A stretch of DNA of 64,000 nt, taken from contig JAILNQ010000054.1 of assembly GCA_024691425.1 (NCBI GenBank), positions 1 to 64,000 on the forward strand, written 5' to 3'. The notes below the pieces were generated by a model. That model saw only the letters and a list, made by a program, of their open reading frames with translations. It searched no databases and had not been told where the DNA came from. Positions within the stretch are counted from its first letter, which is position 1. Each line of letters starts with the position of its first letter. Source of the stretch: Lachnospiraceae bacterium. GTDB lineage: Bacteria; Bacillota; Clostridia; Lachnospirales; Lachnospiraceae. Of the stretch, positions 47,810 to 52,240 are shown piece by piece. Position numbers and translations under genes: made by a program.

Positions 47810-49033
47810 ATGGATTCAACACTGTGCTACATAAAAAATGAGAATAACGAATATCTTCTGATACACCGTAACCGCAAGGAAAATGACCTCAATGAAGGCA
47901 AATGGATAGGTGTCGGCGGGAAGTTCGAGGAAAATGAGACCGCCGAACAGTGCGTCATCCGGGAAGTGTATGAGGAGACGGGGCTTACGCTTACTGACTA
48001 TCATATTCACGGGCTTGTCAAGTTCATTTCCGATACATGGGAAAATGAGGATATGTACCTGTTCTCGGCGACCGGTTTTACCGGAGAGCTGAAGACTGAC
48101 TGTGACGAAGGCGAGCTTGAGTGGGTAGCCGCCGACAAGGTGCTGTCGCTTCCGACATGGGAAGGCGATAAGTATTTCCTGACTCCGCTCCTTAACGGAA
48201 AGGACAGGATAGACATGCTCGTTGAATACGAAGGCGAGAAGCTTATAAGGTGCGAGGATCTTACTGAAAAGATCAGAACGCTGAAATCCCCGCTCATAAA
48301 GTGTCCGCACGGATTTTCGACAAGAACGGGCGGTGTCAGCGACGGTATGTTCGCAACGCTGAACCTCGGCATGAACCGCGGCGATGAGAAGTCAAGAGTC
48401 ATTGAGAACTGGAACCGCTTCCTTGATTCTGCCGGGATCGGAAGCCGCAGCTTCGTGTGCGGACAGCAGGTTCACGGGAACAATGTTGTCATCGCGGGAA
48501 AGAAGGATATACGTCCTGCATACGGAAAAGGGAAGATGAATGTGTGCGACGGATATGTTACGGCTGAGCCGGGCATTCCGCTTGCGATTTTTACCGCCGA
48601 CTGCGTACCGCTTCTTCTTCACGATCCTGTAGCCGGAGCTATCGGTGCTGTGCACTGCGGATGGAGGAGTGCGGCCGCCGACATAGAAAAGAACACAGTG
48701 TCCGCACTTGAATCTCTCGGTTCGAAGCCGAGCAACATACGTGCGGCCATCGGTCCTGCGATCGACAGGTGCTGCTTTGAAGTCGGATCTGAAGTCATTG
48801 ATGCTATGCGGATCCTCATAGGCAGCGATATAGAAAACTACTATGATGCCCGAGGAGAAAAATTCATGCTGGACCTGCGGGGAGTCGTCCGGCGAAGGCT
48901 CGAAGCACTCGGGGTACGGCCTGAAAACATTGATACCGTGGGAAACTGTACGATGTGCCATCCCCTGGAATATTTTTCGCACAGGGGAACGAAAGGCAAC
49001 AGAGGAAGTCTTGCATCCGTCATATGTTTGTGA
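47810..49033 (+). CDS. Nudix hydrolase fused to PgeF (YfiH/laccase-domain) protein
   Basis: A 407-residue fusion. Residues 1-130 are a MutT-like Nudix domain with a complete Nudix box (GGKFEENE at its start, REVYEETGL at its end). From about 165 to 407 is a PgeF/YfiH domain: QQVHG, FTADCVPLLL, AVHCGWRSAA, IGPAIDRCCFEVG and CTMCHPLEYFSHR, with the His/Cys/His zinc site. YfiH proteins edit cell-wall precursors or act on purine nucleosides; Nudix enzymes clean oxidised nucleotides. The start appears leaderless. The fusion suggests a linked nucleotide-salvage or repair role. Confidence 0.87.
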   Translation: MDSTLCYIKNENNEYLLIHRNRKENDLNEGKWIGVGGKFEENETAEQCVIREVYEETGLTLTDYHIHGLVKFISDTWENEDMYLFSATGFTGELKTDCDEGELEWVAADKVLSLPTWEGDKYFLTPLLNGKDRIDMLVEYEGEKLIRCEDLTEKIRTLKSPLIKCPHGFSTRTGGVSDGMFATLNLGMNRGDEKSRVIENWNRFLDSAGIGSRSFVCGQQVHGNNVVIAGKKDIRPAYGKGKMNVCDGYVTAEPGIPLAIFTADCVPLLLHDPVAGAIGAVHCGWRSAAADIEKNTVSALESLGSKPSNIRAAIGPAIDRCCFEVGSEVIDAMRILIGSDIENYYDARGEKFMLDLRGVVRRRLEALGVRPENIDTVGNCTMCHPLEYFSHRGTKGNRGSLASVICL

Positions 49034-49086: not shown

Positions 49087-49617
49087 ATGAACAGAAAGCT
49101 TCAGCTTATCGTGACCGCATCGATGCTTGCGGCAATGACGACGATCGCGACTATGGTGATCAAGGTTCCGACGCTCGGCACGAACGGATATGTGAACATC
49201 GGTGATTCGATGGTGCTCATTTCCGCATGGCTTCTCGGCAACCCTTACGGAGCTCTTGCGGCACTCGTCGGTTCGGCTCTTGCGGATCTTCTGTCAGGTT
49301 ATCCGGCGTATGTTCCGGGAACCGCTATCATCAAAGGCCTGATGGCCGTTGTCTGCACGCTTGTTTTTTCGGCCGTGCACAAAAAGAACATTCCGCTTCC
49401 GTTTGCGTATGTCAGCAGCAGTATCGCGGCAGAGATCGTCATGATCGTCGGATACTTCGCATATGAGTCGGCGGTGCTCGGATACGGGATGGCGGCAGCG
49501 GCGTCGATAGTCAGCAATGCAGTACAGGCCGTCACCTGCATCATTCTCGGAAACACGCTTATAGCCGTTCTTTCCAGGGTCAGGTTCATAAACCGTATGA
49601 CGACCGGAGAGCCGTAA
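49087..49617 (+). CDS. ECF transporter S component
   Basis: A 176-residue membrane protein with about six helices. NIGDSMVLISAWLLGNPYG followed by GSALADLLSGYPAY and PGTAIIKGL is the pattern of vitamin-precursor S components (HmpT/pyridoxine-like) of energy-coupling-factor importers. AAAGGAGG precedes ATG. The EcfAAT energising genes are not in the window, as is usual for group II systems. The vitamin is not certain. No riboswitch fits in the 53 bases upstream. Confidence 0.8.
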   Translation: MNRKLQLIVTASMLAAMTTIATMVIKVPTLGTNGYVNIGDSMVLISAWLLGNPYGALAALVGSALADLLSGYPAYVPGTAIIKGLMAVVCTLVFSAVHKKNIPLPFAYVSSSIAAEIVMIVGYFAYESAVLGYGMAAAASIVSNAVQAVTCIILGNTLIAVLSRVRFINRMTTGEP

Positions 49618-49634
49618 AAAAATTTTTTCAAAAC

Positions 49635-49668
49635 ACCTATTGACATAGTAGGTTAATAGTGCTATATT
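49635..49668 (+). promoter_or_regulatory. Promoter and operator of the metY-cysK leader
   Basis: TTGACA (49640-49645), a 17-bp spacer and TATATT (49663-49668) form a near-consensus promoter. ACCTA-N9-TAGGT (49635-49653), a 5-bp inverted repeat, covers the -35. A site of this form is compatible with an Rrf2-family (CymR/IscR-like) repressor of sulfur genes; that identity is inferred. Confidence 0.6.
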
Positions 49669-49713
49669 ACAGAAAACGCTTCACCGAATATGGTGGAAGA
49701 AAGGAGACAGACA

Positions 49714-49830
49714 ATGTATATAAGACCGAACAACCTTCATGACAAAATATGGTGTTGTCTTACTTGCCCGGGCTCGAATTGCGGCCGGAGCAGGCACTGT
49801 CTGCGTCCGAACAAACGATGCGGATGCTGA
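49714..49830 (+). CDS. Cysteine-rich leader peptide
   Basis: A 38-codon frame that begins about 40 bases after the predicted transcription start, behind a good GGAG site seven bases from ATG. Seven codons are cysteine (14, 15, 18, 23, 29, 36, 38), with tandem TGT-TGT at 49753-49758. It ends 30 bases before a terminator and is followed by metY and cysK. The composition, place and following structure are those of a leader peptide that senses charged tRNA-Cys. An alternative is a small metal-binding protein. No known family is recognised. Confidence 0.6.
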   Translation: MYIRPNNLHDKIWCCLTCPGSNCGRSRHCLRPNKRCGC

Positions 49831-49864
49831 TCTGCAGCTATGATGCATTGAACCGCAGCCCGGG
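49767..49864 (+). promoter_or_regulatory. Candidate antiterminator of the cysteine leader
   Basis: CCCGGGCT (49767-49774) is fully complementary to AGCCCGGG (49857-49864), and GCGG (49781-49784) to the adjoining CCGC (49853-49856). This helix uses the left arm of the terminator, so the two exclude each other. The 5' strand lies just after the first Cys codons, where a ribosome moving on would cover it. CCCGGG is itself palindromic, so chance cannot be excluded. Confidence 0.5.
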
Positions 49865-49886
49865 AATTTCGCATTCCCGGTTTTTT
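49860..49886 (+). terminator. Attenuator terminator before metY
   Basis: CCGGGAAT and ATTCCCGG form a perfect 8-bp stem with loop TTCGC, followed by TTTTTT. It lies after the Cys-rich frame and 106 bases before metY, which makes regulated termination likely. Bases 49887-49991 hold no further structure that I can see, apart from the metY ribosome binding site. Confidence 0.85.
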
Positions 49887-49991
49887 AATGCCCATATGTC
49901 GGATGTATATTAACCAATATCTGAAACAGGAAAACAGAAACGGACAGAAAACTGAAACAGCAGATCAGATGATCAGAAAAGGAGAAATAAA

Positions 49992-51269
49992 ATGAGCGAT
50001 TACAGATTTGAAACACTTCAGCTGCACGTAGGACAGGAATCACCCGATCCCGCAACGGACGCAAGAGCGGTCCCGATCTACCAGACGACATCATACGTCT
50101 TCCGCAACAGCAAGCACGCCGCAGACCGTTTCGGTCTCGCAGATGCAGGTAACATTTATGGAAGGCTTACGAATTCGACACAGGATGTTCTTGAGAAAAG
50201 ACTTGCCGCGCTTGAAGGCGGAAGCGCAGCACTCGCGGTCGCATCAGGAGCCGCAGCTATCACTTATACAATAGAAGCGCTTGCCGCAAACGGCGGACAT
50301 ATCGTTGCACAGAAGACAATTTACGGAGGAAGCTACAACCTTCTCGCACATACGCTTCCGCAGTACGGGATCAGAACAACGTTCGTCGATGCCCATGATC
50401 TTAAGGCAGTCGAGGATGCAATAGAAGACGATACGAGGGCAATATATCTTGAGACGCTCGGAAATCCGAACAGCGACATTCCCGATATCGATGCGGTTGC
50501 TGCTATCGCTCATAAGCATGGTCTTCCGGTAGTTGTTGATAACACATTCGGAACACCTTACCTTATAAGACCTATCGAGCACGGTGCGGACATTGTTGTT
50601 CATTCCGCAACGAAGTTCATCGGCGGACACGGAACAACGCTCGGCGGTATAATCGTTGAGTCAGGAAAGTTCGACTGGAAGGCTTCAGGAAAGTATCCGA
50701 ACATCGCCGCCCCCAACCCCAGCTATCATGGCGTATCGTTCTATGATGCCGTAGGTCCGGCCGCATTCGTTACATACATCCGTGCGATTCTGCTCAGGGA
50801 TACGGGCTCGACCATTGCACCGTTTTCCGCATTCCTTCTTCTTCAGGGTGTTGAGACTCTCTCACTCAGACTCGAGAGACATGCAGAGAACACGAAGAAG
50901 GTCGTTGAGTATCTTTCAAAGCATCCGAAGGTTGAGAAAGTCAATCATCCTTCGCTTCCGGATCATCCGGATCATGCTCTTTATCAGAAGTACTTCCCGA
51001 ACGGCGGCGGTTCGATTTTCACCTTCGATATAAAGGGAGGTCAGAAAGCAGCCTGGAAGTTCATAGATAACCTCAAGATATTCTCTCTTCTGGCTAACGT
51101 AGCTGACGTAAAGAGTCTCGTCATCCATCCGGCTACAACGACTCATTCGCAGCTTTCCGAAGAGGAGCTGAAGGATCAGGGGATCAATCCCGGCACGATC
51201 CGCCTGTCGATCGGAACAGAGCATATAGACGATATAATCGCCGACCTTGAAAATGCATTCAATGCGTAG
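49992..51269 (+). CDS. metY: O-acetylhomoserine sulfhydrylase (PLP-dependent)
   Basis: A 425-residue Cys/Met-metabolism PLP enzyme. The long form, QLHVGQESPDPATDARAVPIYQT at its start in pieces, VVDNTFGTPYL, the lysine of HSATKFIGGHGT and the C-terminal SIGTEHIDDII are those of O-acetylhomoserine aminocarboxypropyltransferase. It makes homocysteine (and acetate) from O-acetylhomoserine and sulfide. AAAGGAG precedes ATG. It is followed 41 bases later by cysK, and preceded by the Cys-rich attenuator leader. Confidence 0.9.
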   Translation: MSDYRFETLQLHVGQESPDPATDARAVPIYQTTSYVFRNSKHAADRFGLADAGNIYGRLTNSTQDVLEKRLAALEGGSAALAVASGAAAITYTIEALAANGGHIVAQKTIYGGSYNLLAHTLPQYGIRTTFVDAHDLKAVEDAIEDDTRAIYLETLGNPNSDIPDIDAVAAIAHKHGLPVVVDNTFGTPYLIRPIEHGADIVVHSATKFIGGHGTTLGGIIVESGKFDWKASGKYPNIAAPNPSYHGVSFYDAVGPAAFVTYIRAILLRDTGSTIAPFSAFLLLQGVETLSLRLERHAENTKKVVEYLSKHPKVEKVNHPSLPDHPDHALYQKYFPNGGGSIFTFDIKGGQKAAWKFIDNLKIFSLLANVADVKSLVIHPATTTHSQLSEEELKDQGINPGTIRLSIGTEHIDDIIADLENAFNA

Positions 51270-51310: not shown

Positions 51311-52240
51311 ATGTCGAAAATATATAAAAGCGCAGTTGAACTCATAGGTAACACGCCTCTCGTTGAGGTTAAGAACATTGAAAAGGAACTCGGCCTTGAG
51401 GCTACGGTTCTCGTTAAGCTCGAGTATTTCAATCCTGCAGGATCCGTAAAGGACAGGATCGCGAATGCGATGATCGAGGATGCTGAGAAGAAGGGGCTGC
51501 TCAAGGAAGGATCGGTCATAATCGAGCCTACGAGCGGCAACACCGGAATAGGACTTGCATCCATAGCTGCAGCAAAAGGATACCGTGCGATCTTCACGAT
51601 GCCCGAGACAATGAGCGTTGAGAGAAGGAACATCCTTAAGGCATACGGCGCAGAGATCGTTCTTACGGAAGGTGCGAAGGGAATGAAGGGCGCGATAGCA
51701 AAAGCTGAGGAGCTTGCTAAAGAGATTCCCGGAGGATTCATTCCCGGACAGTTCGTCAATCCCGCCAATCCTGCGATCCACAAAGCTACAACGGGCCCCG
51801 AGATCTGGAACGATACGGACGGGAAAGTAGACATCTTCATCGCCGGCGTAGGAACGGGCGGTACCGTTACAGGAACGGGAGAGTACCTCAAGGAGCAGAA
51901 TCCTGCCGTCAAGGTCGTTGCGCTTGAGCCCGAGGATTCACCGGTTCTGTCGGAAGGCAGGAGTGGAGCTCATAAGATACAGGGAATCGGCGCAGGCTTC
52001 GTACCCGATGTTCTCAACACGAAGGTATATGATGAAGTCTTCAAGGCACCGAACCAGGCCGCATTCGATACCGCTAAGCTCCTTGCTAAGAAGGAAGGCA
52101 TTTCAGTCGGTATATCGAGCGGAGCTGCTCTCTACGGAGCGATAGAGCTTGCGAAGAGACCTGAGAACAAGGGCAAGACGATCGTAGCGCTTCTTCCCGA
52201 CAGCGGAGACAGATACTATTCGACGGCGCTTTTTGAGTGA
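51311..52240 (+). CDS. cysK: Cysteine synthase A
   Basis: A 309-residue fold-type II PLP enzyme. IGNTPLVE, the PLP lysine in NPAGSVKDR, substrate loop [11 protein letters not shown] and phosphate loop [12 protein letters not shown] are all present. The C-terminal [15 protein letters not shown] is typical of O-acetylserine sulfhydrylase. It makes cysteine from O-acetylserine and sulfide. AAAGGA precedes ATG. Second gene of the metY-cysK operon, so cysteine is the expected feedback signal for the leader. Confidence 0.93.

Follow-up and report, generated by a model that had tools for sequence, protein, structure and literature searches.

How the metY-cysK operon of a Lachnospiraceae bacterium is controlled is the question raised by the DNA in front of these two sulfur-assimilation genes. 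The window, that is, the whole stretch of DNA analysed, comprises 64,000 nucleotides (nt; contig JAILNQ010000054.1 of assembly GCA_024691425.1, positions 1 to 64,000 of the forward strand), and the leader region in it lies between a gene for an ECF-type S component (49087-49617) and the metY start at 49992. A first-pass annotation had proposed that a promoter, a ribosome binding site, a 38-codon frame with seven Cys codons, two of them in tandem, and a terminator together form a cysteine attenuator. Our analyses indicate that the leader very probably controls metY-cysK by ribosome-mediated transcription attenuation in response to charged tRNA-Cys and that, judged by sequence comparison, it is a variant, diverged member of a clostridial Cys-leader family. 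The annotated parts are all present, and both downstream genes score above their NCBIfam cut-offs:

49635-49652, + strand: operator candidate ACCTATTGACATAGTAGG, an imperfect inverted repeat spanning the -35 box, assigned to the Rrf2 type by association (genome site search)
49640-49668, + strand: sigma-70-type promoter TTGACA-17-TATATT (11 of 12 consensus matches)
49701-49706, + strand: Shine-Dalgarno sequence AAGGAG of the leader frame, seven bases 5' of the ATG at 49714
49714-49830, + strand: leader peptide frame of 38 codons, seven of them Cys, with a UGA stop at 49828 (from sequence)
49714-49752, + strand: codons 1-13, MYIRPNNLHDKIW, whose peptide is kept in three same-genus leaders
49753-49758, + strand: tandem Cys codons 14-15 (UGU UGU), the predicted control codons (covariance-model alignment to the UGUUGU of relatives; ribosome-mask folding)
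49767-49774, + strand: antiterminator left arm, helix 1, CCCGGGCT (pairing, folding, covariation in relatives)
49781-49784, + strand: antiterminator left arm, helix 2, GCGG, separated from helix 1 by a 6-nt bulge (folding; similar layout in relatives)
49853-49864, + strand: antiterminator right arm, CCGC plus AGCCCGGG (pairing, folding)
49860-49886, + strand: intrinsic terminator CCGGGAAT-TTCGC-ATTCCCGG plus T6, an 8-base-pair (bp) hairpin at 49860-49880 followed by six T
49735-49902, + strand: whole element as matched by covariance model R1 (34.8 bits; E 5.7e-8 within the window search)
49992-51269, + strand: metY, O-acetylhomoserine aminocarboxypropyltransferase/cysteine synthase (NCBIfam TIGR01326, 633 bits, cut-off 495)
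51311-52240, + strand: cysK, cysteine synthase A (NCBIfam TIGR01139, 450 bits, cut-off 351)

The leader has its Cys codons at positions 14, 15, 18, 23, 29, 36 and 38, and the frame matches the leader profile A1 with an E of 6.4e-8, the window leader being itself one of the 25 rows of A1. A promoter of this quality was found once, against a mean of 1.2 in shuffled sequences, and is thus not significant alone; the terminator search in the leader returned one terminator against 0.5 expected from shuffles, with a fold z score of −2.9 (2 of 200 shuffles equally stable). Folded alone, segment 49766-49866 forms exactly the antiterminator (z score of −4.1; 0 of 200 shuffles equally stable), in which CCCGGGCT (49767-49774) pairs with AGCCCGGG (49857-49864) in the 8-bp helix 1 and GCGG (49781-49784) pairs with CCGC (49853-49856) in the 4-bp helix 2. 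The full leader folds with the terminator when no ribosome is present. The alternative pairing of 8 plus 4 pairs described by the first-pass annotation was thus confirmed, with the amendment that the terminator left arm (49860-49867, pairing with 49873-49880) is not identical with the antiterminator right arm (49857-49864); the two share 5 nt. Terminator and antiterminator share these bases and compete.

To place this arrangement in an evolutionary context, we collected the 80 metY genes most similar to that of the window together with their upstream DNA (three with less than 500 nt), mostly from rumen Lachnospiraceae by inferred family assignment. Within at most 500 nt upstream we sought the leader core pattern CGAATG-n6-[ACT]C[CT]C[GA][GA][AG][CT], which contains no Cys term. 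The core CGAATG-n6-TCCCGGG or a near form was found upstream of metY in 39 of the 80 loci, including those of Eubacterium ruminantium FB3002 (L036) and Lachnospiraceae bacterium AC2029 (L014); among the 29 loci of the window's genus, 8 have the canonical core, the window not being one of them. A looser leader pattern occurs in 62 of 129 metY upstream regions, a redundant and partly leader-selected set that gives no prevalence figure. All 43 distinct elements from the metY-selected loci have at least one Cys among the four codons that precede CGA, so that the Cys codons of the first-pass annotation are borne out in relatives; so do 54 of 55 elements from other searches, which favoured Cys and are not independent. 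TGT outnumbers TGC by 80 to 6 in the metY element set. When the pattern admitted any Arg codon behind the Cys block, 159 of 161 rows still had CGA there; these rows include duplicates and loci picked by the CGAATG pattern, and the two non-CGA rows resemble chance matches in coding sequence. CGAATG itself (columns 25-30 of alignment A2) is nearly invariant at the nucleotide level, partly by choice, since the 81 non-redundant elements were picked by a pattern that fixes CGAATG and most of the initial bases of the arm.

The alternative pairing is conserved along with the Cys codons. In the 81 non-redundant elements, the sequence that pairs best with the arm sits, at the median, 103 nt downstream of CGA (middle half 99-107), and in 75 elements it is complementary at 9 of 9 positions, G-U pairs allowed. 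Alignment A2 contains 74 of these elements, with L165, L133, L077, L162, L161, L154 and L052 excluded for odd arm, spacing or sequence. On A2, 96.5% of cells in the antiterminator are paired, and 9 of its 14 pairs show two-sided changes, a number reached by 0 of 500 shuffles; sliding the partner by 1-3 columns lowers pairing to 22-49%. RNAalifold recovered a ten-pair helix 1 when no structure was supplied. The arm and its partner read, for instance, UCCCGGACA/UGUCCGGGA (L036), UCCCAGGCA/UGCCUGGGA (L116), UCCCGGGCU/AGCCCGGGA (L021) and UCCCGGGUA/UACCCGGGA (L093). Between the helices, 67 of 74 relatives have 7 nt on the left side and 67 of 74 have 2 nt on the right, and helix 2 is mostly UGGC/GCCA.

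Other pairings in the family were also considered. The P1 pairing (CGAAUG/CGUUCG plus UCCCGG/CCGGGG), in which 80% of cells pair with no covariation signal, might act as a trap for the left arm. A second inner hairpin, GGGGCG/CGCCUC, has modest support as a putative helix (1 of 500 shuffles), being 78.7% paired and still 67% paired after a two-column shift. Pairing of CGAAUG with CAUUUG of the right arm was dropped by eye, since that stretch varies.

The window leader was linked to this family by covariance model R1, which was built from A2 with the window outside the training set. It is the sole R1 match in its genome at E ≤0.01 (E 2.3e-6; the E-values are rough), and this match is, among the sequence comparisons, the best evidence against a chance arrangement. 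The window keeps the order helix 1, left unpaired stretch, helix 2, with 6 nt on the left and none on the right. It reads the CCCGGG arm in a different frame, as Cys-Pro-Gly versus Ser-Arg-Ala in relatives. The cysteine attenuator that the first-pass annotation had called unusual would thus be no one-off; it belongs, as a diverged member, to a family across Lachnospiraceae and a few other families of the class.

Sequence and comparison supply the parts, the family homology, the conserved Cys codons, the covariation, the peptide selection described below and the downstream genes; we infer stalling, switching and a response to cysteine as follows. Transcription would begin just past 49668, and the leader frame would be translated while RNA polymerase advances. 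When Cys-tRNA is scarce, the ribosome would halt at Cys codons 14-15 and leave 49767-49784 open to pair with 49853-49864, and this antiterminator would remove the left arm of the terminator and allow readthrough into metY-cysK. When Cys-tRNA is ample, the ribosome would reach the UGA at 49828, the antiterminator left arm would be masked or caught in a hairpin formed locally, and transcription would end at the terminator (49860-49886). The leader ribosome binding site and start region (49703-49716) is in addition 79% complementary over 14 nt to 49795-49808, later in the frame, a pairing that could restrict re-initiation after the first ribosome.

The predicted switch was evaluated by equilibrium folding of the window RNA and 74 relatives with a ribosome mask, using the probability of antiterminator helix 1 as the readout. 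For the window RNA free of ribosomes this probability was 0.04. A stall at Cys14 or Cys15 raised it to 0.55-0.85 when the downstream edge of the mask was set at 12-14 nt, and a ribosome on the stop codon brought it to 0.00 and gave the terminator. A ribosome whose A site lay at 49744-49750 mostly did not yield the antiterminator. In the relatives, the antiterminator was more probable with the stalled than with the stop-codon ribosome in 42 and less probable in 9 (Wilcoxon 1.6e-7). The footprint-dependent folding anticipated by the first-pass annotation was thus obtained for most stalls at codons 14 and 15, and of the control codons 14-18 that it had named, the tandem pair stands.

Several observations weigh against this reading of the locus. 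Some concern the mask itself: Cys14 with a 10-nt edge gave only 0.11-0.18 and Cys15 with a 16-nt edge 0.02; stalls at Cys18 and Cys23 cover the arm and give the terminator, and a stall at Cys29 gives the antiterminator and hence readthrough; an upstream ribosome with its A site at 49702-49738 also favours the antiterminator in the window (0.41-0.89). Among the 74 relatives, placing the ribosome nine codons further upstream gives as much antiterminator as the Cys-codon stall (0.715 versus 0.721), and 43 favour the antiterminator even when the ribosome is left out. Others concern the distribution of the element. The window lacks the CGAAUG core, which appears as a six-base gap in its R1 alignment; the canonical core is missing in 21 of the 29 genus loci; the element is patchy, with R1 matches in 48 of 299 family genomes; and, of the same-genus leaders, L083 has one Cys codon and L090 none, and neither shows a terminator by eye or an R1 match. 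The mask folding therefore supports the modelled direction of the switch and not its Cys-codon specificity, and because the mask result is not Cys-specific, the specificity of the switch rests on the conserved Cys codons.

The leaders of L083 and L090 bear on whether the nascent peptide has a part in stalling. Together with L084, they keep the first 13 codons as MY[IV]R[PE]NNLHDK[IL]W; 19 of the 24 base differences in codons 1-13 are third-position ones, and fewer residues have changed than in simulations (0 of 20,000; 0.0068; 0.0001; the three loci are not independent). This indicates peptide-level selection on the first codons (2-13) and thus that the frame is translated. Four of the 37 genus genomes, that of the window among them, contain the exact motif; only these four exact hits were used, the search having returned four two-mismatch hits against four for the reversed control. 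The leaders of L083 and L090 end right after Trp-Cys or Trp-Met yet keep the N-terminal peptide, and the constraint on it there would go beyond simple Cys counting. In L084 a second UGUUGUCGAAUG is retained at the end of the frame. One alternative is an attenuator in which stalling comes mainly from the nascent peptide, an arrest peptide sensing a sulfur metabolite, and not from a shortage of Cys-tRNA. The selection on the motif in four genus genomes, and its retention in L083 and L090 where tandem Cys codons and a visible terminator are lacking, fit such a peptide; the wider family, however, conserves the Cys codons and not the residues before them (alignment A1), and we judge this alternative distinctly unlikely. 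A combined reading, which we advance tentatively and regard as doubtful, gives the core UGUUGUCGAAUG-n6-UCCCGGGC a role beyond Cys coding: CGAAUG would be a further functional site within the footprint of the stalled ribosome, the window's clade would have swapped the core for MY[IV]R[PE]NNLHDK[IL]W as a stall-tuning or stall-causing peptide, and the switch would read Cys-tRNA plus a second signal. Sensing of both Met and Cys is suggested by the canonical core of the relatives, AUG-UGU-UGU-CGA-AUG, in that AUG codons flank the Cys codons in most of them, and by controlled genes that serve both amino acids, but the window leader has no internal Met codon and dual sensing is very unlikely.

Two further explanations would deprive the frame of its regulatory role. 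Were the element a riboswitch for a metabolite or a tRNA (a T-box, an S-box or a new kind) with an incidental frame, the antiterminator/terminator layout would be expected, and cysteine T-boxes do precede cysK in Clostridium perfringens (PMC2940859). In the genome of the window itself there are two T-box matches below the Rfam cut-off (L264, L265), one ahead of the gene for an ABC binding protein and the other ahead of that for a TrpB-like enzyme, with none at metY. Against a riboswitch, Rfam models at gathering score found nothing in the window and only a tRNA in 20 further loci (13 leader-bearing metY loci and 7 others), and the frame has a Shine-Dalgarno sequence and mostly third-position changes. 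The T-box (RF00230) and SAM riboswitch (S-box) models gave no match in the window leader, a permissive Rfam search of 49560-50010 gave a single far-below-cut-off match to an unrelated family, and no T-box was found in 20 metY loci chosen mostly as leaderless. We consider a riboswitch highly improbable. A small Cys-rich protein with a metal or redox function as the product of the frame, with the terminator as a mere 5' pause and no switching, would account for seven Cys in 38 residues and is extremely improbable: C-terminal length and Cys number vary freely, the leader peptides have no NCBIfam match and only two weak single-member hits in Pfam, and in L015, L149, L160 and L163 an extra base after the arm changes the peptide downstream while helix 1 remains paired at 9 of 9 positions. 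The attenuator sensing charged tRNA-Cys is thus the reading that we prefer.

The first-pass annotation had set an attenuator in place of CymR-type control. The attenuator part of that claim holds; an operator candidate overlapping the -35 box makes dual control of the operon, by an Rrf2-type regulator at initiation and by attenuation, more likely. At up to two mismatches, ACCTATTGACATAGTAGG has four sites in the genome, at the metY of the window, at both above-cut-off Rrf2 matches and at a NifS-type cysteine desulfurase; the last three (L178, L180 and L181) each lie upstream of the gene, and the pattern suggests autoregulated Rrf2 control of the metY-cysK operon. A looser operator motif occurs in 41 of 80 metY upstream regions and in 16 of 29 genus loci, the window included, and it accompanies the leader, being present at 31 of 39 metY loci with the core versus 10 of 41 without it. 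Elsewhere near the leader, a single frame at 47810-49033 joins a Nudix domain at residues 3-124 to a PgeF domain at about residues 170-407.

As judged from genome searches, the leader family appears to range over Lachnospiraceae and a few other families of the class. R1 was applied to the family genomes at E ≤0.01; in the class it matched 14 of 321 genomes at E ≤0.001, 12 of them outside the family and two of these weaker than 1e-6; among 199 phylum genomes it matched only that of the window. A DNA pattern gave 26 sites in 25 of 397 family genomes versus one site for the reversed-pattern control; in 391 class genomes it gave 10 sites, spread over 9 genomes, and the reversed control gave none. 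On 51 loci mostly lacking the canonical core, R1 gave 8 matches at E ≤1 in 6 loci (L026, L055, L034, L084, L042 and L044) and none at that threshold in the other 45.

As the gene behind each leader we took whichever frame with a Shine-Dalgarno sequence was longest in about the next 1 kb, a rule by which a short first gene could be missed. The other searches gave 52 distinct elements with such a gene. It is metY in 24 of them, a polar-amino-acid ABC binding protein in 8, a binding protein of the MetQ/NlpA type in 7, another Cys/Met pyridoxal phosphate enzyme in 3, cysK in 2 (one represented by its C-terminal part only), an ABC permease in 2 and some other gene in 6; related elements were also found before cystathionine enzymes. 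A family match at the E-values used was obtained for 17 of the 28 non-metY genes, in several cases under the curated cut-off; L206 and L167 were tested and gave no match, and the other nine take their names solely from resemblance to tested genes. Because the binding-protein matches, 'cystine' included, fall below NCBIfam cut-offs, the cystine substrate is a presumed one. In L214 (1752-3176, + strand), which is among the 6 elements before other genes, a leader precedes a glycyl-radical enzyme nearest to (2S)-3-sulfopropanediol dehydratase, a below-cut-off match in a frame cut by the locus end, which suggests that sulfonate sulfur may fall within the regulon. In two genomes the canonical leader is followed by a protein in which an amino-acid ABC binding domain is fused to a MetQ/NlpA-type binding domain (L257 762-2459, − strand; L213 1-1341, − strand), and contig 8 of G667, a genome of another family of the class, has three copies of the element within about 37 kb (L237, L243 and L224).

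The proposed mechanism is of a known kind, and the clostridial family appears to be new. In the trp-type attenuators of Enterobacteria the position of the ribosome selects the antiterminator or the terminator; the same choice is proposed here for a different amino acid, the likeness being one of description and not of sequence. Mycobacterial polycysteine leaderless short open reading frames are, going by the title of Canestrari 2020, reportedly cysteine-responsive attenuators of operons. They resemble the window in having Cys codons in short leader frames and differ from it in being leaderless, whereas the window has a Shine-Dalgarno sequence and an intrinsic terminator with an antiterminator that covaries in relatives. 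An earlier survey in Actinobacteria placed the Cys runs close to the stop and saw no terminator hairpin that was conserved (PMC1262725). The uORFC-8-2 motif before cysS in Rhodobacterales is a predicted attenuator with two tandem Cys codons, usually codons 14 and 15, and a U-run terminator (PMC8632094). The window shares its tandem Cys codons at 14 and 15 and its U-run terminator, while uORFC-8-2 belongs to Alphaproteobacteria, precedes cysS only and places its Cys codons inside the first stem, a comparison made by description only; no match of that name appeared in our Rfam scans. Leader peptide attenuation in Firmicutes has a precedent in the His leader peptides before hisS and hisZ in bacilli, where classical attenuation is predicted to replace T-boxes (PMC2965389); there the amino acid is histidine and the hosts are Bacilli. 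In Firmicutes, cysteine T-boxes and CymR exert cysteine control of cysK and uptake genes, the T-boxes via premature termination (PMC2940859). There the RNA is bound by the tRNA itself, or the promoter is the target of a repressor, unlike the mechanism proposed here. Our literature search, by title or abstract start and with subscription papers mostly outside its coverage, found no clostridial cysteine leader family.

If the proposed attenuator is real, it would add one further case of an operon seemingly controlled both at initiation, by an Rrf2-type operator, and by attenuation. The family alignment is clean, and the switch can therefore be tested directly in named carriers. The family would, moreover, put a name to a control of metY, cysK and amino-acid uptake genes, one that none of the Rfam families accounted for in the scanned loci, and it would provide rumen and related Clostridia with a translation-based cysteine sensor in a phylum for which T-boxes and CymR-type repressors are the textbook answer.

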